DNA from: Rhodoglobus sp. | Lineage (GTDB): Bacteria > Actinomycetota > Actinomycetes > Actinomycetales > Microbacteriaceae | Length of the DNA: 56,795 nt | Reading direction: 5' to 3' | Assembly: GCA_025464445.1 (NCBI GenBank) | Contig: JAODLY010000046.1 | Span: 1 to 56,795, forward strand | In this document: positions 9,344 through 31,917 of the stretch, piece after piece | Layout: each line of letters begins with the position of its first letter | Position numbering within the stretch: the stretch's first letter is position 1 | Program-made: the position numbers and the translations under genes | Notes under the pieces: model-generated | Databases searched by the model: none | The model's input: the letters and a program-made list of their open reading frames with translations, nothing else | Told to the model about the DNA's origin: nothing

Positions 9344-10323
9344 GCACCACCACAGTGCAGCGACGATCGTTAGTGACCAACCTGCGGGGGTCGCTGCAGC
9401 AGGTCCTGGCTGCCGCGAGCCTCATCCTGATCTTCATATTCTTCTCGATCGCGAGCCCCTACTTCCTGCTGCCCGCGAACCTCATCGGCATCCTCACGGC
9501 GGCGACGGTCACCGGGATTCTCGCTCTCGGCACGACATTCGTCATCATCACCGGTGGTATCGATCTCTCCATCGGCACCGGCATGGTGTTGTGCGCCGTC
9601 ATGGCCGGCGTCTTTCTCACCTACTGGGGCTGGCCACTGTGGGCGGGCGTCATCGGTGCGATTCTCTTCGGCGGGCTCATCGGCTTCGTCAACGGTGTCG
9701 CCATCTCGGTGTTCGGCTTGCCGCCGTTCATCGCGACCCTCGGCATGATGCTCGTGACGGCGGGACTCGCGCTCGTCATCTCAGGCACGAAGCCGATCTA
9801 CTTCAAATCCACGCCCGACTTTCAGAACATCATGAACCTCTCCCTTATCCCGGGCGCACGGTTTCCGCTCGGCGTCGGCATCTTCATAGTGCTGATGGTC
9901 GTCTCAGCGCTCATTCTGGGCCGCACGATAGTCGGTCGTTACGCCTTCTCCATCGGAAGCAACGAGGCCGCCACGGCCCTGTCGGGTGTCAACGTGCGCC
10001 GCTGGAAGATCTTCATCTACTCGTTCGCCGGCCTCTTCGTGGGAATCGCGGGGGTGCTCGCGGCCTCGCGCCTGAGTTCCGCGCAGCCTACGGGTGGACA
10101 GGGCCTCGAGCTGCAGGCGATCGCCGCGGTGGTTATCGGCGGCACCTCGCTCCAGGGCGGCAGGGGATCGATCGTCGGCACGGTGATCGGCTCGCTCATA
10201 GTGGCGGTGCTGACCAACGGCCTGCGAGTGACAGCCGTGCCCCAGGAATGGCAGTCGGTAGTGGTCGGCTGCGTCATCCTCGTCGCCGTTTACCTCGACA
10301 TGCTGCGCAGGAAAGGGGCGTAG
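9340..10323 (+). CDS. Sugar ABC importer permease (RbsC type)
   Basis: Integral membrane protein of 327 aa in the RbsC/XylH/BPD_transp_2 family with about 8-10 hydrophobic segments. Conserved family stretches include TFVIITGGIDLSIG, GLPPFIATLGMM and AIAAVVIGGTSLQGGRG. It forms the membrane channel of the importer. Its ATG overlaps the ATPase stop by 4 nt, showing translational coupling. The substrate cannot be deduced from the permease. Confidence 0.93.
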   Translation: MSTTTVQRRSLVTNLRGSLQQVLAAASLILIFIFFSIASPYFLLPANLIGILTAATVTGILALGTTFVIITGGIDLSIGTGMVLCAVMAGVFLTYWGWPLWAGVIGAILFGGLIGFVNGVAISVFGLPPFIATLGMMLVTAGLALVISGTKPIYFKSTPDFQNIMNLSLIPGARFPLGVGIFIVLMVVSALILGRTIVGRYAFSIGSNEAATALSGVNVRRWKIFIYSFAGLFVGIAGVLAASRLSSAQPTGGQGLELQAIAAVVIGGTSLQGGRGSIVGTVIGSLIVAVLTNGLRVTAVPQEWQSVVVGCVILVAVYLDMLRRKGA

Positions 10324-17562: not shown

Positions 17563-18231
17563 CTATTCGAGTGAACGGGGTTCGCCATATTCGTCTAGGT
17601 AGTTCTGCTGAGCGCGAGTGAGTGGGAGTTTGTCGACGGTGCTGTGATAGAAAATCTCGTTGTCCATCCACCAGCGCCAAGCGAACTCGCCGAAGGTGAG
17701 CGCGCAAAGGAAGTAATGGCTGGATACGCCCGACCAATATTCCATGTCGTCCTGGTCGAGACGAAATCCGACGGGATAGTCGCTGGCCACAATCGCGGTT
17801 TGGCCATCATCGCCAATGTAGACGGACCAATGCATCGCCCATTGTGAATCAGAGATCAGATGAAGTAGCCGCCCGCCGTCTACGGCGCGCACCTCTTCGC
17901 CAAGATCGAAATAGGCGTCCGTTGCCGAGGGCAGCCGTCTTCGGAGGTCGGGACTGGCGATGAAATCAACCAGGTCCCTGGGCCCGCTGTCTCCCACTAG
18001 TGCCGTCATTGCGAGCGATGAGAGGTCGGCGATGGCGTCCTCCGAAGCCGCTGCCATGGCGCTCTCATCCCATGCTTTGGCATCGCGCAACCAATCCAGC
18101 TGAGGCGCATCCGCAGGTGCCGAAGGGAATTGGCCGAACGACGTATACGTCACGTCTTGACGGTCCGAATCGCCCACGGGAGGGAGTTGAATCGTTATCC
18201 ATCGACGAGGAAGGTCTTGTAGAAACGGCAC
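17563..18231 (-). CDS. Hypothetical protein
   Basis: Protein of 222 aa, not recognised. It is acidic and rich in tryptophan and tyrosine in its second half (YWSGVSSHYFLCALTFGEFAWRWWMDNE), with no signal peptide or membrane helix. Tryptophan-rich small cytoplasmic proteins of this type beside repeat proteins are often immunity or SMI1/KNR4-like proteins, but no diagnostic motif is visible and this is only a guess. Base composition is lower in GC than in the flanking housekeeping genes, suggesting recent acquisition. The start is GTG with no ribosome binding site, so it is uncertain. The same frame stays open for another 26 codons after the stop. Confidence 0.6.
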   Translation of the reverse strand: MPFLQDLPRRWITIQLPPVGDSDRQDVTYTSFGQFPSAPADAPQLDWLRDAKAWDESAMAAASEDAIADLSSLAMTALVGDSGPRDLVDFIASPDLRRRLPSATDAYFDLGEEVRAVDGGRLLHLISDSQWAMHWSVYIGDDGQTAIVASDYPVGFRLDQDDMEYWSGVSSHYFLCALTFGEFAWRWWMDNEIFYHSTVDKLPLTRAQQNYLDEYGEPRSLE

Positions 18232-18417
18232 GATTGAATACTTCCACTCTCAGGCGACGATGAGTTCGTTGGTCATGCCGCGATTGGAACCGGTTGCCAC
18301 GGTGCTGCCCAAAATGTGGCCAAGCAGGGCGACTGATGTCTTGATAGATCACACGCACCGAATGGCGTCCAGCAAGCGGCTTTGAGTCGCACCGCAATGC
18401 CGGGAAGGCGTGACAGT

Positions 18418-19467
18418 TCACTCTCGAAGAAGTTCCTCGAAGTAGTCGCTTCGCCGGCTGGTCGGGACGGGACGCCCCACGAGTTCCATCGCCCGTTTGT
18501 TTCTCTTGAGTGACCCGAGCCCAAACCGCGCATAAGCGAGGGTCGGGTGGTTCGCGAGGAACGCTAAGTCTTCGGGTGCCAGTTGCCTCATGTCGAAAAG
18601 GCTTACTTCCTCGAGAGCCGGAGCTGTCGCCAGTGCCCTTACGTCGGTCAGGCCCTTGAGAGTCTCAATGTGCAATTTCCGCAACTGAGTCATTGTGCTG
18701 AGATCCGGGAGGGCGGTGACGTTCTTCAGCGCCTGGAGAAACAGGTATTCCAGACGCGGAACGCTGCGGATGGCATTCAGGTCATCAAGGCCGCGGATCA
18801 TCCAAAGCTCGAGGTATCGCAAGTCGGGAAACGCGGAGAGTCCATCGAGCTTGTTCGTGCCGCCGAGTTTGAGATCTAGCATCTTCAGATTTCGAAGTGG
18901 CGCAAACGTCGAGAGGTCCGGAAGGGACACGCTCCGCAGAGTGAGGCTTTTCAGTTCTGTGAGGGTGGCGACGACTCCTATGTCCTTCGTGTGGCCTTCA
19001 AGTGCCAGTTGGCGCAGTTCGGTGAATCGACTCAGCGGCGCCAGAGACAATCGCTTGTCCGTTGTCCTTCCCAAGCTCAGGCTTTGGAGTGAAGGGTTCA
19101 GGTGTCTGAGACCCGTGATGTCCTCGACTCCGTAGAGGGCGTCAGCGGCGAATCGAGTGACCCCGGGGAAGTGACGCAGGAACTCGAGATCCCGGATGCT
19201 TCCGTCGTAGCCGCCATACGCACGAAGGGAGACTCGGGGATACTTCCGAAGGAACTTAGCGAGCTTCTTGAGGTCCCTATCGCTCAACATGGATTTGAAC
19301 TGAACGACCCTGCAGCGGGGGTCGAGGGGTCTCAGCATTCTGCGTGTGAGCGGAGAGGACACTTCCCGGATCTCGGGGATCTCGGGGAACGATTGAAGAA
19401 TCGAGTCGAAATCGATCGGGATGTCGGACGAGGTGCTCACAGGGCCATCTTGGCTTAGCACTGCCAT
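18418..19467 (-). CDS. Leucine-rich repeat protein
   Basis: Protein of 349 aa with about nine LRR units of 21-24 residues between residues 90 and 310 (LRHLNPSLQSLSLG, FTELRQLALEG, LTELKSLTLRS, LRNLKMLDLKL and so on). No signal peptide or transmembrane helix is present, so it is probably a cytoplasmic binding scaffold. The ATG at 19467 lies inside a 19-bp tandem duplication; a GTG at 19440, just beyond the duplication, is a plausible older start that would give 340 aa. Partners are unknown. GC content is lower than that of the surrounding core genes. It lies near a tRNA-Arg and an unrecognised gene, a small accessory patch. Confidence 0.75.
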   Translation of the reverse strand: MAVLSQDGPVSTSSDIPIDFDSILQSFPEIPEIREVSSPLTRRMLRPLDPRCRVVQFKSMLSDRDLKKLAKFLRKYPRVSLRAYGGYDGSIRDLEFLRHFPGVTRFAADALYGVEDITGLRHLNPSLQSLSLGRTTDKRLSLAPLSRFTELRQLALEGHTKDIGVVATLTELKSLTLRSVSLPDLSTFAPLRNLKMLDLKLGGTNKLDGLSAFPDLRYLELWMIRGLDDLNAIRSVPRLEYLFLQALKNVTALPDLSTMTQLRKLHIETLKGLTDVRALATAPALEEVSLFDMRQLAPEDLAFLANHPTLAYARFGLGSLKRNKRAMELVGRPVPTSRRSDYFEELLRE

Positions 19468-20703: not shown

Positions 20704-20709
20704 GCCGGG

Positions 20710-21603
20710 CTAGGCGGTGGGGAAAGGTGACCGACCGGAGAGCGCTTCGACGATAGTCAGGAGCGCAGTGTGGTCTTTCGCGCCTCCGCCGTTCGCGCGG
20801 AGTGCTGCCATCAGTTGGGTGGCAAGAGCGCCCATTGGCAGGACAACCCCCGCGTCCCTGGCTGCTTCCTGCAGGATCCCGAGATCCTTGTGGTGTAGAT
20901 CGACTCGGAATCCGGGTTTGAAGTTGCGCGCCAGCATGCTTCGTCCGCGGCGCGCGAGAACCGCGCTTCCAGCGAGACCGCCTTCGAGAACTTCGAGTGC
21001 TGGTTCGAGAAGGACACCCGTCGACTCGAGGAACACGAGAGCCTCGGCGACGAGTTCGATCGTGCCGGCGACGATCAGTTGGTTCGCCGCCTTCACTGTC
21101 TGGCCTGCCCCCGCCGCGCCAACATGACGCACCGTGGCCGCCATGAGCTCGAGAATTGAAAGGACGGACTGAAGATCCCGAGCATCCCCTCCGACCATCA
21201 CCGAGAGCTTTCCCTCGACCGCAGCGGCCTCCCCACCGCTGACGGGGGCGTCCAGAACCGGGATTTGGCGCTCTTCGCCTTCCCGGGCGAGCAGGCGAGC
21301 CGTTGCCGGATCGACGGTGCTCATGTCCAGATAGCGAAGTCCTGCTGACGCCGAGGCAAAGATGCCCTCCGCGCCCAGTGCCACCTCTCGAACATCCGGC
21401 GAGTCGGGCAGCATCGTGATTGCGACCTCCGCCCCGGAAACCGCCTCCGCAATGCTGGGAAAGAACTCCATCCCCGCGGCAGCGAGATCGTCATCGGTTC
21501 CACCTCGCCTCAACGACGTGCGAAGACGATGCCCGCCCTGTAGGAGATTGAGCGCCATGGGTTTCCCCATGATGCCGAGGCCGATGAACACGATGTTTGC
21601 CAC
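20710..21603 (-). CDS. 2-hydroxy-3-oxopropionate reductase-like dehydrogenase (GarR type)
   Basis: NAD(P)-dependent beta-hydroxyacid dehydrogenase of 297 aa. It shows the Rossmann motif FIGLGIMGKPMALNLL, the substrate-binding DAPVSGGEAAA and the catalytic lysine in GAGQTVKAANQLIV. GarR/GlxR enzymes reduce tartronate semialdehyde to D-glycerate; 3-hydroxyisobutyrate and L-threonate dehydrogenases share the fold. The start is GTG at 21603, set by AAGGAG 9 nt upstream. It is divergent from the binding-lipoprotein gene across a 208-bp region with operator-like sites. With the hydroxypyruvate isomerase-like gene at 26348 it would form a hydroxypyruvate-to-glycerate route. Confidence 0.88.
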   Translation of the reverse strand: MANIVFIGLGIMGKPMALNLLQGGHRLRTSLRRGGTDDDLAAAGMEFFPSIAEAVSGAEVAITMLPDSPDVREVALGAEGIFASASAGLRYLDMSTVDPATARLLAREGEERQIPVLDAPVSGGEAAAVEGKLSVMVGGDARDLQSVLSILELMAATVRHVGAAGAGQTVKAANQLIVAGTIELVAEALVFLESTGVLLEPALEVLEGGLAGSAVLARRGRSMLARNFKPGFRVDLHHKDLGILQEAARDAGVVLPMGALATQLMAALRANGGGAKDHTALLTIVEALSGRSPFPTA

Positions 21604-21648
21604 GAGAGCGCACTCCTTTGTTGCCTCGAGCGAGACACTATTCCACCA

Positions 21649-21659
21649 CTGTCCTACAA
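21649..21659. promoter_or_regulatory. FCD-GntR operator candidate 1
   Basis: CTGTCCTACAA matches the FadR-subfamily consensus TNGTNNNACNA at all but the first base. It lies between the divergent GarR-like and binding-protein genes. Confidence 0.4.
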
Positions 21660-21670
21660 ATAGTTTTGTA
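21655..21670. promoter_or_regulatory. Palindrome TACAAA-N4-TTTGTA
   Basis: TACAAATAGTTTTGTA has perfect 6-bp arms around TAGT. It overlaps operator candidate 1 in the divergent control region and may be a second binding site or part of the same one. Confidence 0.5.
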
Positions 21671-21689
21671 AGGCAAGTACACTCGGATA

Positions 21690-21718
21690 TTGCGTATCTA
21701 CCGTATGACAAGTACCAT
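21690..21718 (+). promoter_or_regulatory. Promoter of the family 5 binding-protein gene, with operator-like spacer
   Basis: TTGCGT (21690-21695) and TACCAT (21713-21718) are 17 bp apart. The spacer contains CCGTATGACAA (21701-21711), which matches TNGTNNNACNA except at the first base. A repressor bound there would block the promoter. Confidence 0.45.
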
Positions 21719-21811
21719 CGGCTTACGGATGTCGACCGGCTCACAGCGGCCGCTCGGACGTCTCCTCTTGCACTACAAAACCTCGAAGAGAGAGAAACAA
21801 AGGAGTTTCAC

Positions 21812-23353
21812 ATGCGTCCGTCACACCGGCTTCTCGCAATTGCCGCGGCCGTCAGCATCGCGGCGATCGGCCTCAGCGCGTGCTCGTCAACCAGCACGCC
21901 CGCCCCGGCAGCCTCGACCGCCGACAATCTCACACTTCACTTCGGACTCGATAAGGCGATGCCCACCTGGGACATCGGCGGGTTGCAGTCTGGAACGATC
22001 GATACGCTTTACAACTCCGTCTTCGACACGCTCCTCCACATGAACGCGGATGGCACGATTGAAGCCGGCGCCGCGAAGACCTGGAAGTACAGCTCCGACA
22101 ATCTCACCCTCACGCTCGATCTGCGCACCGGCATGAAATTCACTGACGGCAACCCCGTCGATGGCGCAGCAGTCAAGGCGTCGCTCGAACGGATCAAGAC
22201 CGGCGGCGCGTCTGCAGCGACGTTCCTGGCCAACGTGGCGACAGTGGATGCCGCGAGCGCGACGACCGTCGTGCTGCACCTGAGCAAGCCCGATCCTGGC
22301 CTCCTCGGCTATCTCACCCAGCGTGGCGGCGTCATTGAGAGCCCGGCGGCGTTCGCAGACCCGAATGTGGCTCTCGATCCGGTCGGCTCCGGTCCATACT
22401 CACTGGATGCATCCGCCACCACTGACGGTTCCACTTATACCCTCGTGCGCAACCCTGACTTCCGCAACGCCAAGGACTATCCGTACAAGACGGTGGTCTT
22501 CTCGGTGTTCACGAGTTACACCGCGGCATTGAACGCCCTGCAGTCCGGCCAGATCAACTACGCCGCGCTGGACCAGTCGACGGCGGCTGGAGCGAAGGCT
22601 GCTGGTCTCAACGTGCAGCCGATGAAGTACTTCCAGGCCGACCTGCTCTATCTTGCCGATCGCGCCGGCACCATCCTGCCGGCTTTGGGCAACGTGAAAG
22701 TTCGCCAGGCAATCAACTTCGCGATCGATCGCGACAACATCGCCAAGAATCTCGTCGACGGTTTCGCCGAGTCCAATGTGCAACTTCTTGCACCGTCCGC
22801 CAATGGATACGTAAAGAAGTTGAGCAACCTCTACACCTACGACGTGACGCAGGCCAAGACGCTCATGAAAGATGCCGGCTACGCGAACGGGTTCGATGTC
22901 ACGATCCCGAGCACAGCGGCAACGTTGCCGTACGAGCCAACGCTGACGCAGGAGCTCGCCGCTATCAACATCCGCGTGACCTGGACTCCGGTTCCCACCG
23001 ATCAGTTCAACGCCCGCGCGGGCAAGGGCGAGTGGCCGATGTTCATCTTCCCGATCGGGATGGAGACAGTGCAGCATGACTTCGGGGTCAACGTGCTCCC
23101 GAACGCCTTGTTCAACCCGTTCAAATCGGATGCGCCGGAATTGTCCAAGGCGATCGCAACCACGCTGACCGCGACAGACCCCAAGGACGTGACTGCCGCG
23201 TATGCGGATGCGGAGACGTACATCACGGAGAATGCATGGTTCGCCCCGATCGTCGACCTGGACCGCATCAACGGCACTGACAAGTCGGTCGTGTTCACGC
23301 CCCCCACGGGAAACGTGCACATCGCATTGACGAGCTTCGCGCCCGCCAAGTAG
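21812..23353 (+). CDS. ABC importer substrate-binding lipoprotein (family 5, DppA/OppA type)
   Basis: Solute-binding protein of 513 aa (SBP_bac_5). The signal peptide ends in lipobox LSAC (about 21-24), followed by a Ser/Thr/Ala/Pro linker. Domain blocks FTDGNPVDGAAVKASLERI and NVKVRQAINFAIDRDNIAKN are typical of the dipeptide/nickel/glycoside cluster. AAGGAG precedes the ATG. It should feed the permease and ATPase genes at 27198-30741, although it is encoded 6 kb away beside the predicted glycosidase; family 5 proteins also bind oligosaccharides, so a glycoside ligand is plausible. Confidence 0.92.
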   Translation: MRPSHRLLAIAAAVSIAAIGLSACSSTSTPAPAASTADNLTLHFGLDKAMPTWDIGGLQSGTIDTLYNSVFDTLLHMNADGTIEAGAAKTWKYSSDNLTLTLDLRTGMKFTDGNPVDGAAVKASLERIKTGGASAATFLANVATVDAASATTVVLHLSKPDPGLLGYLTQRGGVIESPAAFADPNVALDPVGSGPYSLDASATTDGSTYTLVRNPDFRNAKDYPYKTVVFSVFTSYTAALNALQSGQINYAALDQSTAAGAKAAGLNVQPMKYFQADLLYLADRAGTILPALGNVKVRQAINFAIDRDNIAKNLVDGFAESNVQLLAPSANGYVKKLSNLYTYDVTQAKTLMKDAGYANGFDVTIPSTAATLPYEPTLTQELAAINIRVTWTPVPTDQFNARAGKGEWPMFIFPIGMETVQHDFGVNVLPNALFNPFKSDAPELSKAIATTLTATDPKDVTAAYADAETYITENAWFAPIVDLDRINGTDKSVVFTPPTGNVHIALTSFAPAK

Positions 23354-23372
23354 AGCCTTAAGAACGAAACCA

Positions 23373-23413
23373 CCAGCGGCGGAGAGGGCCTTCCAGGCAC
23401 CCTCCGCCGCTGG
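23373..23413 (+). terminator. Intercistronic hairpin after the binding-protein gene
   Basis: Arms at 23373-23388 and 23400-23413 pair over about 14 bp with a 2-nt bulge. There is no T-run. It probably stabilises the upstream message or gives partial termination, so that the binding protein is made in excess over the enzyme. Confidence 0.55.
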
Positions 23414-23440
23414 ACCATGAAGAGGTGAGGAACCGCACGC

Positions 23441-25492
23441 ATGAAGAAGACTGACCAGCGCGAAGTATCCCTGGAGCGCACAGTGACTTCTGGACAATGG
23501 TGGCGATCGCCATTCGAACTCTTTCAAACCAACCTGCGAGAGATCGATGCCGACATGGATGTCGAAGCGACGGCGGACTTCATCGTGGCTCACGGTGCAA
23601 GCGCGTGGCTCTTCGGCGTGGGTGGGATTCTCTCCTACTACCCAAGCGATCTCGACTTCCAGACCCGCAATCCGTTCTTGAGCGGGCGCCCGAGCGGCGA
23701 CCTGGTCGGTGATGCGATCACCGCGGCCCACGCCCGAGGGCTGCGTTTCGTCGCACGGATGGACTTCTCCAAGATCTCGGCGAAGATTGCCGCCGAGCAC
23801 CCGGAGTGGTGCTTCATCTCGCCGGACGGCTCACTTCAAACGCACACGGGCGATCTGGTCAGCGTGTGCCCCAGCGGCCAGTACTACCAGAGCCGCGTCT
23901 TCGACATCATCGATGAGATCATCGAGCGGTATCCGGTCGACGGATTCTTCTTCAACTGGTTCGGCTTCAACGAGGTGGACTACAACAAGGCCTATCACGG
24001 CGTTTGCCAGTGCGTGAGCTGCCAGGAAGGGTTCGCAGAATTCGGTGGCGGGCAACTTCCGACGGGCCCCGAGAGCCCGGGGTACACGCAGTGGCTGGGC
24101 TTCGCCGAGGAGGTTATTGACGGCGTGACCGCGCGAGTGCGCAATCATCTGGACGCGCGCCTGCCAGACGCCGGGCTCATCCTCGGTCGGGCCGCCGACA
24201 TCATGTTCCAGGAAGCCAACAACGCTGTGGGGCGCGACTTCTGGCCGTATGCGACGGCAGAGGGCGTGAGTGCTTCCCGCTCGTATCGGCCGGACGTGCC
24301 GGTCATGGTCCACGCCGTGGAATTCTTCGACATGCCCTATCGCATGGCAAGCGAGGAGACCTCGCGAGTCGGGCAGTATCTTGTCCAGGCTCTCTCACGT
24401 GGCGCAAACCCCTCGACGTACATCATGGGCGCGCCCGGGCGGATCCCGTACGCGGGCCTGCCGATCGCCGGGGAGATCACGCGATTCCACCGTCGCTGGC
24501 GCGAGGTTTATGAGCACTTCGTCCCGGCGGCCCGCACCGCGCTCGTGCGCCCGAGCCTGCTGGCGCAAACCCAGGAGGCGTTCGACTCGGCCTCATTGGA
24601 ATTCCGCGGCCTGTACCTTTCCCTGCAGCAGAAGCACGTGCCCTTCGATGTGATTCCCATGGAGCACATCGCCGACATGGCGGACAACGGGAGTCTCGCC
24701 CGCTACGCCCTCGTCGTGTTGCCGGATGTCGGGGAGCTGGCGCAGGACGCCGCTGCCGCGCTCGATGGATTTGTCGATCTCGGAGGAAACCTTCTCGGGA
24801 CCGGCGTAAGCGGACTCGCGTTCGGGGGAGTTCAGTTGTCGGCGTCGCCGGCCCTGGAGCCGCGGGAGTTGCTCGAAGGCTTCGCGCTGTGGTCCTCCTA
24901 CATTGCGGCAACTCCTGTCGGCTTAGCCGCAGATCACTTCGAGGCACCCATCGTGCCGGTGTTCGGCGGCTACCGTTCGTTCGACTGGAAGGCCGACTCC
25001 ATTGCGTATCGAACGTTCCTTCCCCAGGCGCCTTTTGCCCCGCCTGAGAAGGCCTACGGCCACCGGCCGAGTCACGACCCCGGATATGTCGTAGCGCCAT
25101 ATGGTCGCGGTCGGGGCGCGCTGATTCCCTGGACTACAGGGCGTGCATACCTCGAACTTGGGCTTACTGCTATCCGTGACTCATTCATTGAGGTGGTTGG
25201 CACGCTCCTGGACGGTGCTGAAACGCTAGTGTTCGACGTTCCGGAGCAGGTGGAGATCACAGTTCACCAAAGCAACGCCGGCCTCGTCGTGCATCTGGTG
25301 AACATGTCGGGGGTGCGGTCAGCGAACTTCGGCCCCACGGTGCCGATCCGCGGAGCCAGGATCTCGGGAGCGGCTCTTGGGGGAGTCGCGCGCGCTCTTG
25401 TGGCAGATCGTGACGTCACGCCGGCGAACGATTCGGGCGTCGTCGTGCCCGACTTCGACTTGTTCGAGGTCATCGTGTTCTCGACCCCATGA
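23441..25492 (+). CDS. GHL6-like predicted glycoside hydrolase with trimerisation-type domain
   Basis: Protein of 683 aa. The N-terminal two thirds look like a TIM-barrel of the hypothetical glycosyl hydrolase 6 type: FELFQTNLREIDADMDV, GLRFVARMDFSK, YPVDGFFFNWFGF, and a CQCVSCQ cysteine cluster. From about residue 365 a beta-galactosidase-trimerisation/amidotransferase-like domain follows (ALVVLPDVGELAQDAAAALDGFV, then GGNLLGTG), and a beta-sandwich tail. Catalytic acids are not identified. There is no signal peptide, so it would act on imported substrate. The ATG at 23441 has GAGG 10 nt upstream; a GTG at 23483 with GGAG 6 nt upstream gives MTSGQWW and is an equally good start. Family assignment rests on recall of motifs. 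Confidence 0.8.
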   Translation: MKKTDQREVSLERTVTSGQWWRSPFELFQTNLREIDADMDVEATADFIVAHGASAWLFGVGGILSYYPSDLDFQTRNPFLSGRPSGDLVGDAITAAHARGLRFVARMDFSKISAKIAAEHPEWCFISPDGSLQTHTGDLVSVCPSGQYYQSRVFDIIDEIIERYPVDGFFFNWFGFNEVDYNKAYHGVCQCVSCQEGFAEFGGGQLPTGPESPGYTQWLGFAEEVIDGVTARVRNHLDARLPDAGLILGRAADIMFQEANNAVGRDFWPYATAEGVSASRSYRPDVPVMVHAVEFFDMPYRMASEETSRVGQYLVQALSRGANPSTYIMGAPGRIPYAGLPIAGEITRFHRRWREVYEHFVPAARTALVRPSLLAQTQEAFDSASLEFRGLYLSLQQKHVPFDVIPMEHIADMADNGSLARYALVVLPDVGELAQDAAAALDGFVDLGGNLLGTGVSGLAFGGVQLSASPALEPRELLEGFALWSSYIAATPVGLAADHFEAPIVPVFGGYRSFDWKADSIAYRTFLPQAPFAPPEKAYGHRPSHDPGYVVAPYGRGRGALIPWTTGRAYLELGLTAIRDSFIEVVGTLLDGAETLVFDVPEQVEITVHQSNAGLVVHLVNMSGVRSANFGPTVPIRGARISGAALGGVARALVADRDVTPANDSGVVVPDFDLFEVIVFSTP

Positions 25493-25495
25493 CAG

Positions 25496-26146
25496 CTATG
25501 CCTCGAGGTCTCCGAGAAGTCGATCACGGGCGCCGTGGAGATCCGCGCCAAGCGCCAGTGACGCCTGGATCGAGTCACCCGAGGCCACCGCAACCAGAAT
25601 CGCGCTGTGCTCGCGGGTGACCATCTCAAGGTCGGTTAACTTACTCCGTTGTACCTGGGCGATACAAAGCTGGGCCTCGCCCATGATGGTCTCGTGCATT
25701 CGCTGGAGCCGCGGGCTGCGAACCGCCTCGACGAGAGCGCGGTGGAACGTGATGTCGGCCTCTGCGTGATCGACCAGGTCGGCGTCCTCAGTAGCTCGCT
25801 CCATGCTGCGCAGGGCTCGACGGGCCTCTTCTGGAACTGTCTTGGTCTCAGTGAGCGTCAACACAGCCCGCAACTCGACGCTCTCGCGGCTGTAGTAGAT
25901 GTCGCGAATATCCTCCGCAGAGAATGTTGGGACTATCGCGCTCTTGCGCGCGCCTTTGCGCAGGATGCCGTCCTTGGTAAGCCTTTCCAGGCTCGCCTTG
26001 GCGGTCGGTCGTGCGACAGCGAACTCTGCCGTGACCCAAGCCTCAGTAATGCGGGTACCCGAGGCGACCTCTCCCGACAGGATCCGCTCGCGCAGTGCAG
26101 CGCTCAATGAGTCCGTCAGCGACGGCGTCTCCAGTTGTCCGGGCAT
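25496..26146 (-). CDS. FadR-subfamily GntR regulator of the catabolic locus
   Basis: Protein of 216 aa. The N-terminal winged helix-turn-helix (LTDSLSAALRERILSGEVASGTRITEAWVTAEFAVARPTAKASLERL) is followed by an FCD ligand-binding domain with the metal-site style residues in DITFHRALVEAVRSPRLQRMH and EHSAILVAV. The start MPGQLE has GGAGA 6 nt upstream; the open frame runs further but is not supported. It is convergent with the glycosidase gene (3 nt) and divergent from the isomerase gene. Exact TTGT-N3-ACAA sites lie in front of it and in front of the transporter genes, so it probably controls the whole 20.7-31.9 kb locus and itself. Confidence 0.9.
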   Translation of the reverse strand: MPGQLETPSLTDSLSAALRERILSGEVASGTRITEAWVTAEFAVARPTAKASLERLTKDGILRKGARKSAIVPTFSAEDIRDIYYSRESVELRAVLTLTETKTVPEEARRALRSMERATEDADLVDHAEADITFHRALVEAVRSPRLQRMHETIMGEAQLCIAQVQRSKLTDLEMVTREHSAILVAVASGDSIQASLALGADLHGARDRLLGDLEA

Positions 26147-26197
26147 GAGATTCTCCGATGAACCGATGGCGAGTGAATTTTCGAGAGCAAAGAGCCT

Positions 26198-26208
26198 TTG
26201 TCGGACAA
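26198..26208. promoter_or_regulatory. FCD-GntR operator 2 (exact consensus)
   Basis: TTGTCGGACAA fits TNGTNNNACNA exactly and is a perfect palindrome around one central base. It lies between the divergent GntR and isomerase genes, so it could serve autoregulation and control of both directions. Confidence 0.6.
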
Positions 26209-26347
26209 GTTTCACATATACACCGCCATCTTGGCCACTTTGCCACCGGCGATTTCGTGGCGATTGGTCGCCTGATCGAGGAGTCAAGTTGGGGTGTACT
26301 GTGACTCGAGGGACACCCGGTTCGTCACTGGAGGCACGGGAGATATT

Positions 26348-27181
26348 GTGGTGCGCTTAGGTCCATTCGAGCTCGCCGCGAATCTTTCAACGCTTTTTCG
26401 TAACACCGAACCGCTCGACCGTGCAGCGCTGGCGAGCGAATGGGGATTCGCCTCCGCGGAGTCATGGTGGCCGTTCGACTCACCCGCCCCTGACCCGGAC
26501 GAGATCGATGCATTTGCGAAGTCTCTCGAAAATGCGGGCATCGCGCTCACGGCACTCAACTTTTACGCCGGTGACATGGCTGCGGGAGATCGGGGTGTAC
26601 TCTCGCATCCCGATTCCGAGGAGATCGTGACCCGCAATCTCGCGGTCGTGGAACGCATCGCGGACCGCACCGGATGCCGGGTGTTCAACGCCCTTTACGG
26701 GCAACGGCAGCCATTGGTTAGCGACACCGAGCAGGATGCGGTGGCAGTTGCGAATCTCGCGCGGATTGCGGCGCGGCTGGCCGTGATCGGAGCCACCGTG
26801 GTGCTCGAGCCACTGACGGAAGGGCCGAACGGCCAATACCCCATCGTGAACTCGGCCAACGCTCTCGAGAAGATCCGAGCCGCACGAGCTGCCAGCGGAC
26901 TCGACAACATCAAGTTGCTGTTCGACGTCTTCCACCTGTCAAACGCAGGGGAGGACCTGCTGGCACTGATTGCCACGAGCGCGCGCGAGATCGGCCACGT
27001 GCAATTCGCCGATTCACCGGGTCGGGGCGAACCCGGAACTGGCTCGACCGACTTCGCGGCGATCGTGCGGGCGCTCGCCCAGAGCGACTATCGAGGATCC
27101 ATCGGATGCGAATACTTCACCACTGAGACAACCCGGGCGAGTCTCGCCTGGATCGAGGAGCTCGAATCGTCGATCGGCTAG
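26348..27181 (+). CDS. hyi: Hydroxypyruvate isomerase-like TIM-barrel protein
   Basis: Protein of 277 aa in the AP-endonuclease-2/xylose isomerase-like family. It opens FELAANLSTLF, with metal-binding acids in VVLEPLTEGPNGQYPI and LLFDVFHLS, then HVQFADSPGRGEPGTGSTDF and GSIGCEYF, matching hydroxypyruvate isomerase (Hyi), which interconverts hydroxypyruvate and tartronate semialdehyde. 2-oxo-tetronate isomerase (OtnI) is closely related, but no OtnK or OtnC is present. The start is the GTG with GGGAG 5 nt upstream; GTG at 26294 would add 18 residues without family similarity. Confidence 0.87.
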   Translation: MVRLGPFELAANLSTLFRNTEPLDRAALASEWGFASAESWWPFDSPAPDPDEIDAFAKSLENAGIALTALNFYAGDMAAGDRGVLSHPDSEEIVTRNLAVVERIADRTGCRVFNALYGQRQPLVSDTEQDAVAVANLARIAARLAVIGATVVLEPLTEGPNGQYPIVNSANALEKIRAARAASGLDNIKLLFDVFHLSNAGEDLLALIATSAREIGHVQFADSPGRGEPGTGSTDFAAIVRALAQSDYRGSIGCEYFTTETTRASLAWIEELESSIG

Positions 27182-27197
27182 CCGTCGACGAAGATCG

Positions 27198-28028
27198 TCA
27201 CATGCCTGCCTCTACGAGGCGATGGCGCTCTGCTCTGCGATTGGCCTGCTCATCCGGGTCGGCGACGGGCGCCGAAAGCAGGAGCTTCTTCGTGTAGGGA
27301 TGTTTCGGGTGCCCAGTCACCTGGTCTGCTGAACCCGTTTCGACCAGCTCGCCCCGCAACATGACCGCGACGCGATGGCTGATATGATGGACAACCGATA
27401 GGTCGTGGGAGATGAACAGGTACGCGACACCGGACTGTTCCTGGATCTCGATGAGCAGATCGAGCACTCGAGCCTGTGTCGAGAGATCGAGTGCGGAGAC
27501 CGGCTCATCACACACGATGAGACGCGGCTGCAGGGCGAGCGCGCGCGCGATTGCAATCCGTTGTCGCTGGCCACCACTGAACTCTCGTGGATATCGTCGC
27601 TCCGCATCCGACGGCAGAGCCACTCGGTCCAGCAGGGCGCGCACGGCGGTGCGCGCGTCCTTCGCCTTCCGGCCCTGAGCGATGAGCGGCTCGCTCAGGA
27701 TGTCTGACACGAGCATCGCGGGGTTCAAAGAGGTGTACGGGTCCTGGAATATCACCTGGATATCGCGGGCGAGGGCGCGACGCTGCTTTCCGAGCCCTGG
27801 CGCAACCGGGGCACCATCGAACGTGATCTGGCCGCTCGACTGGGGCACGAGCCCGAGCACGGCTCGACCAAGCGTGGTCTTGCCCGACCCCGATTCACCC
27901 ACCAGCCCGAGGGTTTCCCCGGGTGCGATCTCGATCGAGACCCCATGGAGTACCTCGTTGGCGCGCGCGTGAAAACCCTTTGCCCTGTACTCGACGCGGA
28001 GGTCCTTGACCTCGAGTAGCGGCGTCAT
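27198..28028 (-). CDS. Oligopeptide/dipeptide-type ABC importer ATPase (DppF type)
   Basis: ATPase of 276 aa with Walker A GESGSGKTT (44-52), signature FSGGQRQRIAIARAL, Walker B LIVCDEP and a C-terminal oligopeptide-transporter extension (HPKHPYTKKLLLSAP). It pairs with the ATPase half of the preceding fusion protein to energise uptake. Its ATG overlaps the stop of the fusion gene (ATGA), so the two are translationally coupled. The family also carries glycosides and nickel, so the solute is open. Confidence 0.93.
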   Translation of the reverse strand: MTPLLEVKDLRVEYRAKGFHARANEVLHGVSIEIAPGETLGLVGESGSGKTTLGRAVLGLVPQSSGQITFDGAPVAPGLGKQRRALARDIQVIFQDPYTSLNPAMLVSDILSEPLIAQGRKAKDARTAVRALLDRVALPSDAERRYPREFSGGQRQRIAIARALALQPRLIVCDEPVSALDLSTQARVLDLLIEIQEQSGVAYLFISHDLSVVHHISHRVAVMLRGELVETGSADQVTGHPKHPYTKKLLLSAPVADPDEQANRRAERHRLVEAGM

Positions 28029-29803
28029 CGCGCTGTCGCCTTTTCCGCGAGAGTCGAGCCAGGATTGCCCCTGCGAAGCGGTGAACGGTCATCGAGGATC
28101 GAGGCAAGCAACTTCTTCGTGTAGTCGTTCTGAGGCATTGCGAATATCTCCCTGGTTGGGCCGGATTCGATGATCCTGCCCTCCTTCATTACCGCGACGC
28201 GATCGCAGAGATCCGCGACGACGCCGAAATTGTGCGTGACCAGAACGACGCCCATCCCGCTCTCTTTTTGCAGATCGCGGAGCAGATCAAGGATCTCGGC
28301 CTGCACCGTGACATCCAGCGCCGTTGTCGGCTCATCTGCGATCAGCAGGTTCGGGTTGCAAGCGACGGCGCCTGCGATGAGCACTCGCTGGGCCATTCCT
28401 CCGGAAATCTCGTGCGGATATGCGCGAAAAGTCCGTTCGGGATCCGCGATCCCAACGCGGGCTAGCAGCCCCAGGATCACTTTTTTCGCCTCAGCGCGGG
28501 ACACACGTGTGACGGCTCTTACGCCGTACACCAGCTGACTGCCTACGGTGAAGGACGGGTCGAGGTTCGACATCGGCTCCTGGGGCACGTAGGCGATCAC
28601 CTTGCCGCGAAGAGCGCCCACGCGTGCGGGTGGCAGGTTCAGGATGTTGGCACCGTTGACCCGGATGGTGCCGGCGGTCACGCGCGCGCTTTCGGGAAGG
28701 AGTCCCAGGATTGCGAAAGCGGTCTGGGTCTTTCCGGAACCGGACTCACCGACGAGACCGAGGATCTCGCCTGGCTGCACCTCCAGGCTGACGTCGTCGA
28801 CGACGAGGCGGATCTTTGAGCCCTGGGGATACCCGATGCTGAGACCACTCACGGAAAGGAGCGCGCCACCGTCCTCGAGGGCGGCGCCCTCGGTGCGCCT
28901 CCGAGGAGCTTTGAGGCGTCGTGACGAGACGCGCGGACCCTCGAGCGTGTCCCGCACGGCGGTGCCGAAGAGCACGAACGCACCCACGGTTATGCCGAGC
29001 GCCATCGCCGGCCAGAGAACCTCGATCGGCGACGTGTAGAGATTGCTGAATGCTTCGAGGATCATTCCGCCCCAGGTGGGAACCGTCGCGTTCGTTATTC
29101 CGAGAAAGGCCAGCGAGGACTGCAGGGTGATCCCGAGGCCGGCGATGTACGACGCGGTGATGATGACCGGAGCTCGGACCACATAGAGAACGTGCCGGCC
29201 CAGGATGCGCCAGTTGCTGAGCCCGGAAACGCGGGCCGCGTCGACGTACAGCTCGTTCTTGACGCCGATGACGAGGCTACGGACCAGTCGGAAGAAGCTG
29301 ACGGACAGGAGCACTCCCAGCGCGGCCGTGAGCAGCTCGCTCGAACTTCCGATCACCGAGTAGATCGCAAGGAGTATGACGATCACAGGAAAGGCCTGAA
29401 GCAGGTTGAAGATCCACGTCGACACCGCTTCGAATCCCCGGCCGAAGTAGCCGGCGATCAGCCCCGCGGGAACTCCGATCACCGCTGCGACGCCGGCCAC
29501 AATCAGGGCCGACTCCATGCTGACATTGATGGCAGCGATCAAGCGGCTCAGGATGTCCCGGCCTGAGCTGTCCCCACCGAGCAGGTATTGGCCACCGATC
29601 GGCGCATTGGTCATCGCGAGGCTGCTGAGATTGGGATCCTGCGGCATTATCCATGGGGCAAGGAGCCCGACCAGCGTCACGACGACAAGGACCGCCAGCG
29701 AAACGACGCCGAGCGGATTGCGAAGGAAGCGTCGAGCAAGTCCCTCGTGGGAAGTTGCGAGCGTCGACGGGTCGATCGCGATTGGTGTTCCTTCGATGCT
29801 CAT
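28025..29803 (-). CDS. Fused ABC importer permease-ATPase (DppC-DppD)
   Basis: Protein of 592 aa joining two usually separate subunits. Residues about 20-300 are a DppC-type permease with the N-terminal OppC_N segment (FLRNPLGVVSLAVLV), about six membrane helices and the ATPase-contact loop ELYVDAARVSGLSNWRI. From about residue 320 an ATPase follows with Walker A GESGSGKTQ, signature ISGGMAQRVLIAGAV and Walker B LLIADEP. The fusion makes a fixed 1:1 ratio of the halves. The ATG overlaps the DppB stop (ATGA). A GTG 27 nt upstream is less likely. Confidence 0.93.
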   Translation of the reverse strand: MSIEGTPIAIDPSTLATSHEGLARRFLRNPLGVVSLAVLVVVTLVGLLAPWIMPQDPNLSSLAMTNAPIGGQYLLGGDSSGRDILSRLIAAINVSMESALIVAGVAAVIGVPAGLIAGYFGRGFEAVSTWIFNLLQAFPVIVILLAIYSVIGSSSELLTAALGVLLSVSFFRLVRSLVIGVKNELYVDAARVSGLSNWRILGRHVLYVVRAPVIITASYIAGLGITLQSSLAFLGITNATVPTWGGMILEAFSNLYTSPIEVLWPAMALGITVGAFVLFGTAVRDTLEGPRVSSRRLKAPRRRTEGAALEDGGALLSVSGLSIGYPQGSKIRLVVDDVSLEVQPGEILGLVGESGSGKTQTAFAILGLLPESARVTAGTIRVNGANILNLPPARVGALRGKVIAYVPQEPMSNLDPSFTVGSQLVYGVRAVTRVSRAEAKKVILGLLARVGIADPERTFRAYPHEISGGMAQRVLIAGAVACNPNLLIADEPTTALDVTVQAEILDLLRDLQKESGMGVVLVTHNFGVVADLCDRVAVMKEGRIIESGPTREIFAMPQNDYTKKLLASILDDRSPLRRGNPGSTLAEKATAR

Positions 29804-30741
29804 TGCAGCCTCGCTTTCGGGTTGAGCCACGCGTTGACGAGGTCGACCACCAGGTTCACGACCACGACCACCACCACCACGAACGCGATTACCCCCATGA
29901 TCACCGGGATGTCACCGGTAGAACTTGCAGCGGTGGAGAAAGCGCCGAGACCAGGCAAGGCGAACACCGACTCGATGATGAAGGCGCCGCCGAGCATGCC
30001 CACGAACTGCAACGACAGAATCGTGAGCGCAGGGGTTGCAGCATTGCGAAGGCAGTGCCGCAGCACGATGGCGAAAAAGGGGATACCGCGGCTCTTCAGC
30101 GTGCGGACGTAGTCGCGACCCAGTTGGTCAATCATTGCGCCGCGCACCTGCTGGCTGACCGAGGCGACGCCACCCAGGGTCAGCGCTGTTGCCGGGAGAA
30201 CTACTGTCGACCACCACCCCAACGGCGAGGTCGCAAAAGGGATGAACCCGGTGGCCGGTACCAAGCGCCAGGTAACGGCGAACACCACGTCAATCAGGAT
30301 CGCAACCAGGAGACTCGGCACGACGTGCCCGACCAGCGAGATGAACTGCACGATCCGGTCGATGGTTCCCCCGAATACGGCCGCGGCGGTGCCTAGTCCA
30401 ACGCTGATGATCGCCGTGAGGGTTACCGAGACGAGAACCACCGACAGGGTGACGGGTACGCGGCTCGCGAGGGCGGAGGTTACCGGCTCGCTGAGGAAGA
30501 AGGAACGCCCCAGGTCACCCACGACCGCGTGCGACAGCCAGGTCCAGTACTGCACATACAGCGGTTCGTTCAGGCCGAGTTGCGCGGTCTTCAGGGCCAC
30601 CTGCTCTGCCGTGGCTTCCGGGCCGAGTAGCGTGCGCGCCACGTCGCCGCCGCCGGCGCTGACCAGCAGGAAAGCCAATGCCGTTGCGACGAGTATCAGA
30701 ACGATGCCCGAGAGCACTCTTCTAATGAGAAGGCTGGTCAC
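29800..30741 (-). CDS. ABC importer permease (DppB type)
   Basis: Membrane protein of 313 aa with about six helices. The opening TSLLIRRVLSGIVLILVATALAF is typical for DppB/OppB, and the loop MIDQLGRDYVRTLKSRGIPFF contacts the ATPase. It forms the channel with the permease half of the fusion protein. The start chosen is GTG at 30741, just after AAAGGAG; an ATG at 30762 would add seven residues but has no ribosome binding site. It is the first gene of a minus-strand operon dppB-dppCD-dppF with 4-nt overlaps, divergent from the hydroxyacid dehydrogenase gene. Confidence 0.9.
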   Translation of the reverse strand: MTSLLIRRVLSGIVLILVATALAFLLVSAGGGDVARTLLGPEATAEQVALKTAQLGLNEPLYVQYWTWLSHAVVGDLGRSFFLSEPVTSALASRVPVTLSVVLVSVTLTAIISVGLGTAAAVFGGTIDRIVQFISLVGHVVPSLLVAILIDVVFAVTWRLVPATGFIPFATSPLGWWSTVVLPATALTLGGVASVSQQVRGAMIDQLGRDYVRTLKSRGIPFFAIVLRHCLRNAATPALTILSLQFVGMLGGAFIIESVFALPGLGAFSTAASSTGDIPVIMGVIAFVVVVVVVVNLVVDLVNAWLNPKARLQ

Positions 30742-30795
30742 GAAACTCCTTTGTTCGATCATTGTGACGCTGGCACTGCGGGTGGAGCATAGCTA

Positions 30796-30806
30796 TTGTT
30801 GTACAA
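30796..30806. promoter_or_regulatory. FCD-GntR operator 3 (exact consensus)
   Basis: TTGTTGTACAA fits TNGTNNNACNA exactly and overlaps a possible -10 box TACAAT (30802-30807). It sits between the divergent transporter operon and dehydrogenase gene. Confidence 0.6.
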
Positions 30807-30859
30807 TATAACTTGCCAGTCAGTTTACGAAACGTCGTCGACGACGCAAGAGGAGCCTC

Positions 30860-31858
30860 GTGTTGGAGAGAAAGATCAACTCGGTGCTCACCACCGTGTC
30901 CTATTCACTGAAGAACTTTGAGGCGCTCCGGCAGATCTTCCAGCCAGCGGAGATCGTCCGTCTCGACCAGGATGACGAGGCTGGTATCGCGGAGGCTCTG
31001 GAGCGAGCCGACGTCGCTGTGCTTTCATCCGACCTGGACCAACGATTCCTCGACGCTCCACGCCTCGAGTGGATCCATTGCGATCATGCTGGTCTCAACG
31101 CGAGCGCGGTCCCCGAACTGTTCAAGCGAACCGACCTCATCGTCACGGGATCCGCCGGCCGAAACGCCGCAGCGCTCGCCCAGCACGCGATGTTCTTCGC
31201 GCTTTCGCTGGCCTACGAAGCCCCTCGCCTCATTGACACCCAACGTCAACGCAAGTGGAACAGCCTCGCAGATTATGAGGATGGGCTGTGCCTCTGGGGA
31301 AAGACCATTGGCGTCGTGGGCTATGGCAACACCGGGCGCGAACTTGCGCGGCTCGCCAAGGCGTTTGGCATGCGGGTTCTCGTGTACGGCCGTCACCCCG
31401 ACGATGCCGACAGCACCATCGTCGACGAATATCTCGACGCGGGGGAGGCGGGATCTCTCGACCGGCTCCTCGCCGCAAGCGACTTTGTGGTGCTGACAAT
31501 CCGTCTCACCGATGATACCTATCACCTGATTGGTGAGCACGAACTCGCGACCATGAAGCGAAGCGCTTACCTCATCAATCTCGCTCGCGGTCCGGTCGTC
31601 GACGAGCCAGTACTGGCAGCCGCCCTCGCAGCGGGGGAGATCCGGGGCGCCGGTCTCGATGTGTTCGAACAGGAGCCGCTGCCGCCGGACGCGGTGATCT
31701 GGGACGCCCCTCATACCATCTTCACCTCGCACACCACCCTTCGCCTGCCCGATGCGACGGAGCGCTCGCTTCGCACGATCGAGGAGAATCGGCGCCGGTT
31801 TCTCGCAGGGGAGCCGATGCTGAACGCCTTGACGCCTGACGACGTCTTTAGCCACTGA
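30860..31858 (+). CDS. D-2-hydroxyacid dehydrogenase (hydroxypyruvate/glyoxylate reductase-like)
   Basis: Protein of 332 aa. The NAD(P)-binding motif is GYGNTG (154-159). Catalytic residues of the family are visible as Arg in NLARGPVVDE, Glu in GLDVFEQEPLP and His in FTSHTTLR. It reversibly reduces 2-oxoacids such as hydroxypyruvate, glyoxylate or phenylpyruvate to D-2-hydroxyacids. GAGGAG stands 4 nt before the GTG start. In the context of the isomerase and GarR-like genes, hydroxypyruvate reduction to glycerate is the most economical guess. It ends the catabolic locus. Confidence 0.9.
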   Translation: MLERKINSVLTTVSYSLKNFEALRQIFQPAEIVRLDQDDEAGIAEALERADVAVLSSDLDQRFLDAPRLEWIHCDHAGLNASAVPELFKRTDLIVTGSAGRNAAALAQHAMFFALSLAYEAPRLIDTQRQRKWNSLADYEDGLCLWGKTIGVVGYGNTGRELARLAKAFGMRVLVYGRHPDDADSTIVDEYLDAGEAGSLDRLLAASDFVVLTIRLTDDTYHLIGEHELATMKRSAYLINLARGPVVDEPVLAAALAAGEIRGAGLDVFEQEPLPPDAVIWDAPHTIFTSHTTLRLPDATERSLRTIEENRRRFLAGEPMLNALTPDDVFSH

Positions 31859-31917
31859 CGTAGTACTTCTCGTGACCCAGCGCGTGGAAGTTGCACGATG
31901 ACAGGACCGGGCGAGGG

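Follow-up and report, generated by a model that had tools for sequence, protein, structure and literature searches.

A block of nine genes in Rhodoglobus sp. (family Microbacteriaceae) raises the question which compound it serves to degrade, and by which route. The block occupies positions 20710–31858 of contig JAODLY010000046.1 (assembly GCA_025464445.1), of which the 56,795 nucleotides analysed here are called the window. A sequence-only reading had described it as one catabolic unit with a peptide-type importer, a GHL6-like predicted glycosidase, three enzymes of C3 hydroxyacid metabolism and one FCD-GntR regulator. All nine genes it named were located in the block by means of a list of open reading frames (ORFs) and Pfam and NCBIfam profiles, and no further gene was found between them. 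On the evidence presented here, we give about an even chance to the view that this is a catabolic island in which an importer under FCD control and a GH151-like enzyme with an altered nucleophile supply a unit that is taken to glycerate by a GarR-like reductase, a 2-hydroxyacid dehydrogenase and, sometimes, a Hyi-like isomerase.

The GHL6 protein and its catalytic residues

The GHL6 gene (positions 23441–25492, plus strand) matches PF14871 with 87.4 bits (cut-off 35), which bears out the family named by the sequence-only reading. GHL6 is given as a Pfam domain of Mfuc3, an alpha-L-fucosidase from soil, in the report on that enzyme (PMC4723247), and a passage in PMC10154630 later places Mfuc3 in family GH151, together with ALfuk2 and Blon_0346. 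There, the nucleophile of ALfuk2 is named as D154 and the acid/base as E235; these are D183 and E264 of the chain in the PDB, if its numbering is shifted by 29, as judged from the lengths and the letters of the chains. The window protein alone had no match in the PDB at an E-value of 0.1, and a profile of 23 relatives found ALfuk2 (6TVK) as its first match (E 1.4e-17). An AlphaFold2 model (pLDDT 89, pTM 0.91) also has 6TVK as its best fold match (E 1.3e-34, TM 0.74) and shows the three-domain GH151 fold, with a GH151-like TIM barrel, a GH42-type middle domain and a beta domain. GH42 beta-galactosidases and GH164 beta-mannosidases are the next-best folds, at about 10–15% identity. A likeness to GH42 lies furthermore in a CxC..C pattern after beta-4, which aligns with that family, and in the middle domain, whose Glyco_hydro_42M match stays under the cut-off.

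The protein thus has the domain and the fold of GH151 but not its nucleophile. In the profile alignment as well as in MAFFT, D183 of the ALfuk2 chain aligns with Asn172, which is invariant in 40 of 40 rows of its clade, and an ordinary glycoside-opening enzyme, as assumed before, is therefore not supported. In the region of the acid/base the alignment failed, with a gap opposite Glu235 of ALfuk2 in MAFFT; judged by the order of the strands in the model, the invariant Glu258 is a candidate for this role. His503 of GH151, which comes from the neighbouring subunit, falls on Pro535 by MAFFT and near Lys537 by the profile alignment, and a PPEKAYGH loop is conserved without a His at the exact place.

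On beta-3, the 23 aligned relatives share invariant Arg106, Asp108, Ser110 and Lys111, which the displayed Asp-type rows lack; the five Asp-type rows have Tyr and Ser/Asn at the positions of Arg106 and Asp108, where the Asn-type proteins shown keep Arg/Asp. Together with the Asn at the nucleophile place, these residues could also fit a lyase, an isomerase or a binding or regulatory relative, i.e. no hydrolase at all. We consider this improbable, as the entire fold is kept with many invariant residues, unlike in a decaying pseudoenzyme, and Glu258 ends the strand on which, by strand order, GH151 would keep its acid/base.

A quick tree, calculated without the column of residue 172 and rooted by choice on the Asp-type rows, whose branches are long, separates 43 rows of clade A, to which the window protein belongs, from 14 rows of clade B and 5 Asp-type rows; the Asn/Asp label needs one change each for clade A, clade B and the Asp-type rows. 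The genome holds a second GHL6 protein (contig C22:76000–95900, here L022, gene at 7979–10201 of that locus), which keeps the Asp, matches 6TVK on its own (E 6.5e-22) and has a sub-threshold alpha-L-fucosidase match. Asn-type genes of clades A and B are often close to each other (L015, L023, L026, L032, L035, L038, L040, L042, L044, L056, L122, L123 and L127), and many of the organisms with such neighbouring genes may need two of these enzymes. Two side observations concern the relatives themselves. The GHL6 protein of L025, labelled 'Mycobacterium sp. KBS0706', groups with Inquilinus limosus, pointing to a mislabelled genome or a recent transfer, and the GHL6 genes of L058 and L060 (Pseudonocardia sp. 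CNS-004) are split over several tblastn pieces, by decay or sequencing errors.

Conservation of the genomic neighbourhood

Relatives of the GHL6 gene were taken from the genomes of the family (10 of 398 with a match, the own genome included), and a single scan of the GTDB species genomes added 38 loci. A sample of the phylum gave 3 of 396, so that the gene is rare. After removal of five duplicates, 42 anchored loci, mainly from Actinomycetota and Alphaproteobacteria, were searched by tblastn with the window proteins (identity at least 30%, coverage at least 0.6), and 20 stretches of 19.9 kb, chosen by hand from nine genomes of the family, served as controls. The GarR-like reductase is found near GHL6 in 31 of 42 loci and the 2-hydroxyacid dehydrogenase in 33 of 42, versus none of the 20 controls in either case. 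These controls come from the family alone, while the loci are taxonomically broader and in part closely related to each other (Promicromonospora, Plantibacter, two of Nocardia carnea). Among the 32 loci of at least 19 kb, 25 have the reductase, 27 the dehydrogenase, 22 both and two neither (L031 and L058). Hyi is rarer, with 13 of the 42 loci and none of the 20 controls, and the FCD regulator and the family 5 binding protein occur in 5 of the 42 loci each. The Chloroflexota-type loci L052, L055 and L059, all on short contigs, have one dehydrogenase among the three. The proposal of a joint system would have lost its ground if such neighbourhoods did not keep these genes together; for GHL6, GarR and the dehydrogenase they do.

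The link between C3 enzymes and Asn-type genes was tested separately. From a class-level sample of 296 genomes (PF14871 in 24, over the cut-off in 15), 14 regions from 11 genomes were compared, plus L022; L122 (6.4 kb, with Asn-type A and B genes) was excluded, as no neighbours are visible there. GarR, dehydrogenase or Hyi stands beside seven of seven Asn-type loci (L123, L124, L125, L126, L127, L129 and L134), which represent five genomes (L124 and L023 are one locus, and L125 overlaps with L134 on a single contig). All three enzymes are present just in L123 and L124. In L127, the A-type frame has the sequence GVFVN where the residue was tested. None of the three was found beside any of seven Asp-type loci, called by motif (L130, L131, L132 and L022) or by reading frames (L128, L133 and L135), the GHL6 protein of L133 being under the cut-off of the family. 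The outcome agrees with what the catabolic-island reading predicts, in a sample that is small and not independent throughout.

The same comparison bears on the idea of an ordinary GH151 alpha-L-fucosidase locus that acts on fucosides. The Pfam family and the fold are indeed common with Mfuc3 and ALfuk2. However, the nucleophile Asp is replaced, the nine genes include none of the families of fucose isomerase, kinase, aldolase or fucose dehydrogenase, and the Asp-type loci, from which the window clade is separate, come without the C3 enzymes. Such a locus is therefore very improbable.

Further neighbours were annotated in chosen representatives. Malate synthase G was found at L021, L034 and L036, and a GlcD-like oxidase beside some relatives. 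As guides to the substrate these two, the glucarate genes, GH42, GH3, GH15, GFO/MocA and SDR were all rejected: because each occurs in one or few loci, none of them fixes the substrate. A 3-oxoadipate enol-lactonase-like hydrolase lies near Asn-type GHL6 genes in six loci (L021, L034, L036, L045, L051 and L129, at least 45% identity to the L034 copy, the locus of this query counted), which may point to a lactone as an intermediate of this branch. In both Microlunatus loci, a protein of about 490 aa is encoded near the GHL6 gene (L031:5823–7292, this copy without a Pfam match; 86% identical in L032, from about 8.4 kb).

The C3 enzymes and a proposed route to glycerate

The GarR-like reductase (20710–21603, minus strand; PF03446 and PF14833) belongs to the tartronate semialdehyde/2-hydroxy-3-oxopropionate reductase family. 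Its ORF opens at 21744 with GTG 21603 as the likely start; here and below, likely starts were read by eye from start codons and Shine-Dalgarno-like sequences. Against the tartronate semialdehyde reductase model TIGR01505 it reaches 324.4 bits, 16 bits under the cut-off of 340.75, which its relative in L023 passes with 357.9 bits. Its nearest solved structure is 1VPD, a tartronate semialdehyde reductase. The Hyi-like protein (26348–27181, plus strand; PF01261; ORF open from 26294, likely start GTG 26348) is a xylose-isomerase-type TIM barrel of the hydroxypyruvate/oxo-tetronate isomerase kind, with 217.1 bits against the hydroxypyruvate isomerase model TIGR03234 (cut-off 353.45), and 3NGF and 1K77 (YgbM) are its nearest solved structures. 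The D-2-hydroxyacid dehydrogenase (30860–31858, plus strand; PF02826) is glyoxylate/hydroxypyruvate reductase-like and of a generic family; nearest to it are the glyoxylate reductases 1WWK and 5MH5. These results uphold the enzyme families around tartronate semialdehyde, hydroxypyruvate and glycerate that the sequence-only reading had recognised. The exact activities attached to Hyi and GarR go further than their scores, both under the NCBIfam cut-offs, and with 13 of 42 loci Hyi does not qualify as an essential step.

A glycerate kinase gene is located within about 10 kb of GHL6 in five loci (L013, L046, L047, L048 and L134; 0 of 20 controls), and the own genome has one on contig C40. Because of this, D-glycerate is the most economical exit. 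The earlier statement that no kinase is present thus holds for the block but not beyond it. Since GarR and the dehydrogenase recur without Hyi, we infer that the cleavage product may appear as both tautomers.

Could the block be a cluster for glyoxylate or glycolate assimilation, with the GHL6 gene as a passenger? The glyoxylate cluster has the gene order gcl-hyi-glxR-glxK. Its Hyi and GarR/GlxR families, as well as the dehydrogenase, are glyoxylate-pathway families present here, glycerate kinase occurs in some relatives of the block, and malate synthase G and the GlcD-like oxidase beside others would fit as well. In contrast to gcl clusters, the block has an importer, a GHL6 protein and a 2-hydroxyacid dehydrogenase in addition, and it lacks a glyoxylate carboligase among its nine genes; in the own genome the best match to this enzyme reaches 395.7 bits and stays under the cut-off of 711.2, in line with the earlier view that this is not a glyoxylate cluster. 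Furthermore, GarR and the dehydrogenase track the Asn-type, not the Asp-type, GHL6 genes. We hence give a passenger role of GHL6 very little credit.

Two other routes were rejected for GarR, which scores far lower on the sulfolactaldehyde and threonate models (179.8 and 145.2 bits). Glucosylglycerate was rejected as well; by titles and abstracts its named enzymes are of other families, and nothing in the data points there.

More weight has to be given to longer sugar acids (uronates, aldonates or aldarates) in place of C3 acids, with the dehydrogenase as a 2-ketoaldonate reductase, GarR acting on a 3-hydroxy sugar acid and Hyi as a tetronate-type isomerase. The Hyi-like protein matches YgbM with 78 bits (best solved structure 99) and the 2-oxo-tetronate isomerase model with 151.5 bits, the 2-ketogluconate reductase 9M0T is among the matches of the dehydrogenase, and the enol-lactonase-like hydrolase recurs as described. 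The Lentzea locus L045 adds a 5-dehydro-4-deoxyglucarate dehydratase (over the cut-off) and a near-cut-off glucarate dehydratase; therefore, hexarates fit better than C3 acids there. On the other hand, the best match of GarR is to tartronate semialdehyde reductase, the cut-off of which a relative passes, glycerate kinase is near five loci, and the window block has no aldolase, dehydratase or sugar-acid kinase. On balance, longer acids appear unlikely as the substrates, though clearly less so than a fucoside or a glyoxylate cluster.

Genus comparison

The argS gene directly downstream of the block is present in 21 of 21 genomes of the genus, the own one included, and ten argS-anchored regions were aligned to the window by blastn. 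In nine of the ten the flanks adjoin, their aligned pieces being separated by less than 0.9 kb, and the block is absent there. The left flank is a transglutaminase-like gene (19.9–20.70 kb of the window), and the right one is the argS side, from 31.92 or 32.61 kb. In L093 and L098 the window position around 20,70x joins that around 31,915 directly, and for L093 the junction was read. In L100 about 13 kb of other content separate the flanks, therefore this is not an empty site. Nine other listed genomes of the genus in the family sample gave no match to the window GHL6 protein at E 1e-40. The entire block is thus an accessory island (20704–31914) absent between the same flanks in genus relatives, and its insertion limits coincide with those of the nine genes. 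The extra segment comprises exactly these nine genes, which is good evidence of joint function, and these limits, along with the co-occurrence of GHL6, GarR and dehydrogenase, support the claim of one catabolic unit.

Probably, the block was gained as one piece by horizontal transfer, a gain being likelier than nine losses. The GC content is 0.61–0.643 across the block and 0.656–0.692 at 32 to 50 kb, but equally low upstream, at 8–10 and 18–20 kb; GC alone is therefore weak evidence for an island. Next to the island, a second variable segment was noticed: from none of the ten genus regions is there a blastn alignment to positions 17563–19467, where two minus-strand genes encode a protein of 222 aa (no Pfam match) and a leucine-rich-repeat protein of 349 aa.

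Regulation

The FCD-GntR regulator (25496–26146, minus strand; PF07729 and PF00392) has its ORF open from 26287 and its likely start at ATG 26146. The block has three divergent promoter regions, between GarR and binding protein, regulator and Hyi, and DppB and dehydrogenase. Two of them hold an exact copy of TTGTNNNACAA, which we propose as operators: TTGTCGGACAA at 26198–26208 (plus strand) in the regulator/Hyi region and TTGTTGTACAA at 30796–30806 (plus strand) in the DppB/dehydrogenase region. We take the form of FCD-type operators to be TNGTNNNACNA. One would expect 0.15 exact sites in the 56.8 kb, and none of 100 shuffles reached the observed two, for a pattern that was chosen after inspection of the three promoter regions. 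The third region, GarR/binding protein (21604–21811), has three of the seven one-mismatch sites of the window (21649, 21666 and 21768).

Exact sites were also found in three of eight other loci with an FCD regulator (L023, L057 and L123; the duplicate L124 left out), located where a B-type GHL6 frame begins or directly upstream of a gene for the regulator or a binding protein. They were absent from the other five of these loci (L019, L031, L032, L127 and L129) and from all seven inspected loci without such a regulator. The GarR/binding protein and regulator/Hyi regions share ten 14-mers (20 simple shuffles: mean 2.7, largest 8); the other two pairs share three (mean 0.95, largest 5) and none (mean 1.7, largest 8). 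Sigma-70-type sites, three in the window, are at chance level.

The importer

The importer consists of a family 5 binding lipoprotein (21812–23353, plus strand; PF00496; lipobox LSAC read by eye; ORF open upstream of the likely start, from 21362), a DppB permease (29800–30762, minus strand; PF19300 and PF00528), a DppC permease fused to a DppD ATPase (28025–29830, minus strand; PF12911, PF00528 and PF00005 in one 601-aa frame) and a DppF-type ATPase (27198–28028, minus strand; PF00005 and PF08352). With SBP_bac_5, two permease and two ATPase domains it is complete and a member of the peptide/opine/nickel-type family 5, so that its domain content supports the importer proposed before. It resembles the Dpp/Opp/Nik importers (e.g. 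AgaA) in this content and differs by the fusion of C and D, which is real, as in Nocardia relatives one frame of 600 aa matches C as well as D. The nearest solved structure to the lipoprotein is AgaA (6HLX; E 2.3e-27, 99 bits), whose ligand is agropinic acid; with only 99 bits the ligand cannot be read from this match.

At 30% identity a linkage of the Dpp genes to GHL6 fails (DppF in 13 of 42 loci versus 9 of 20 controls, DppD in 11 versus 7), ATPases and permeases being common everywhere, controls included. Relatives of at least 63% identity do stand out, with DppF in seven loci and DppD in six (control best 46%); for DppF the identity is 64–70%, in three Nocardia loci, Lentzea, L125, L126 and L134. 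Some other loci have a sugar-type binding protein of family 1/8 in place of the family 5 one, hence the Dpp importer cannot be called a core part of the system. Between the binding-protein and GHL6 genes a GC-rich inverted repeat (23370–23415, plus strand) was read by eye, possibly a partial terminator or 3' stabiliser.

Proposed pathway and implications

In the pathway that we propose, one FCD-GntR regulator would bind TTGTNNNACAA-type sites in the divergent promoter regions, and the lipoprotein with DppB, DppCD and DppF would import a glycoside or sugar conjugate that is small and probably acidic and that the GHL6 protein would cleave inside the cell. Given Asn172 in place of the nucleophile Asp and the clade-specific Arg106 and Asp108, GHL6 should use another route, which may be substrate-assisted, inverting or based on a relocated carboxylate. 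One cleavage product would be, or soon become, the C3 pair hydroxypyruvate/tartronate semialdehyde. Judged by their families, the Hyi-like enzyme, where present, would interconvert the two, and GarR and the dehydrogenase would reduce one of them each to D-glycerate, which glycerate kinase would pass to glycolysis.

Several observations weigh against this pathway. Hyi is absent from most loci, and GarR and dehydrogenase are both missing from 5 of the 42, three of these being contigs of 7–12 kb. Because GarR and Hyi are under equivalog cut-offs, the C3 assignment rests on kinship, and the Lentzea locus fits hexarates. Binding proteins and importers differ between loci, so that the substrates may differ as well, and two Asp-type loci (L131 and L132) have Dpp-type genes beside them as well. 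No significant excess of one-mismatch TTGTNNNACAA sites accompanies the exact ones (9 versus a mean of 4.99, reached in 11 of 100 shuffles), and the hindsight in choosing this pattern counts here too. Finally, neither integrase nor transposase was seen inside the island, low GC content also occurs in two upstream stretches, and the relatives could have lost the island rather than the host gained it.

A bolder version, which we put forward tentatively and as the less probable one, is that clades A and B together are a new enzyme family: GH151-like barrels without the nucleophile carboxylate and with Arg/Asp on beta-3, which would split an acidic conjugate, either assisted by the substrate or by elimination, and release a C3 enediol acid. 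Because this acid has two tautomers, hydroxypyruvate and tartronate semialdehyde, the module would hold two reductases and sometimes an isomerase. Such an undescribed pathway would have spread horizontally across Actinomycetota, Alphaproteobacteria and perhaps Chloroflexota.

A literature search yielded no paper that we recognised as describing this module or this GHL6 clade. The block reads as a catabolic island around a nucleophile-altered GH151-like protein. The clade is like the GH151 alpha-L-fucosidases (ALfuk2, Mfuc3 and Blon_0346) in its three-domain fold and, for Mfuc3, its PF14871 domain; it differs by Asn172 for Asp154, by Arg106/Asp108 on beta-3 and by its link to C3 hydroxyacid enzyme families instead of fucose genes. 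GH151 is described in PMC8395109 as a small family with a debated physiological role. In the present case, synteny links a sister clade, in which a catalytic residue is altered, to glycerate as the likely exit, so that the substrate of GHL6 can be sought among few candidates. If the mechanism does differ, this would add a catalytic variant to the GH29/GH42/GH151 fold group. It also cautions against similarity as the sole basis for calling these genes fucosidases or galactosidases.

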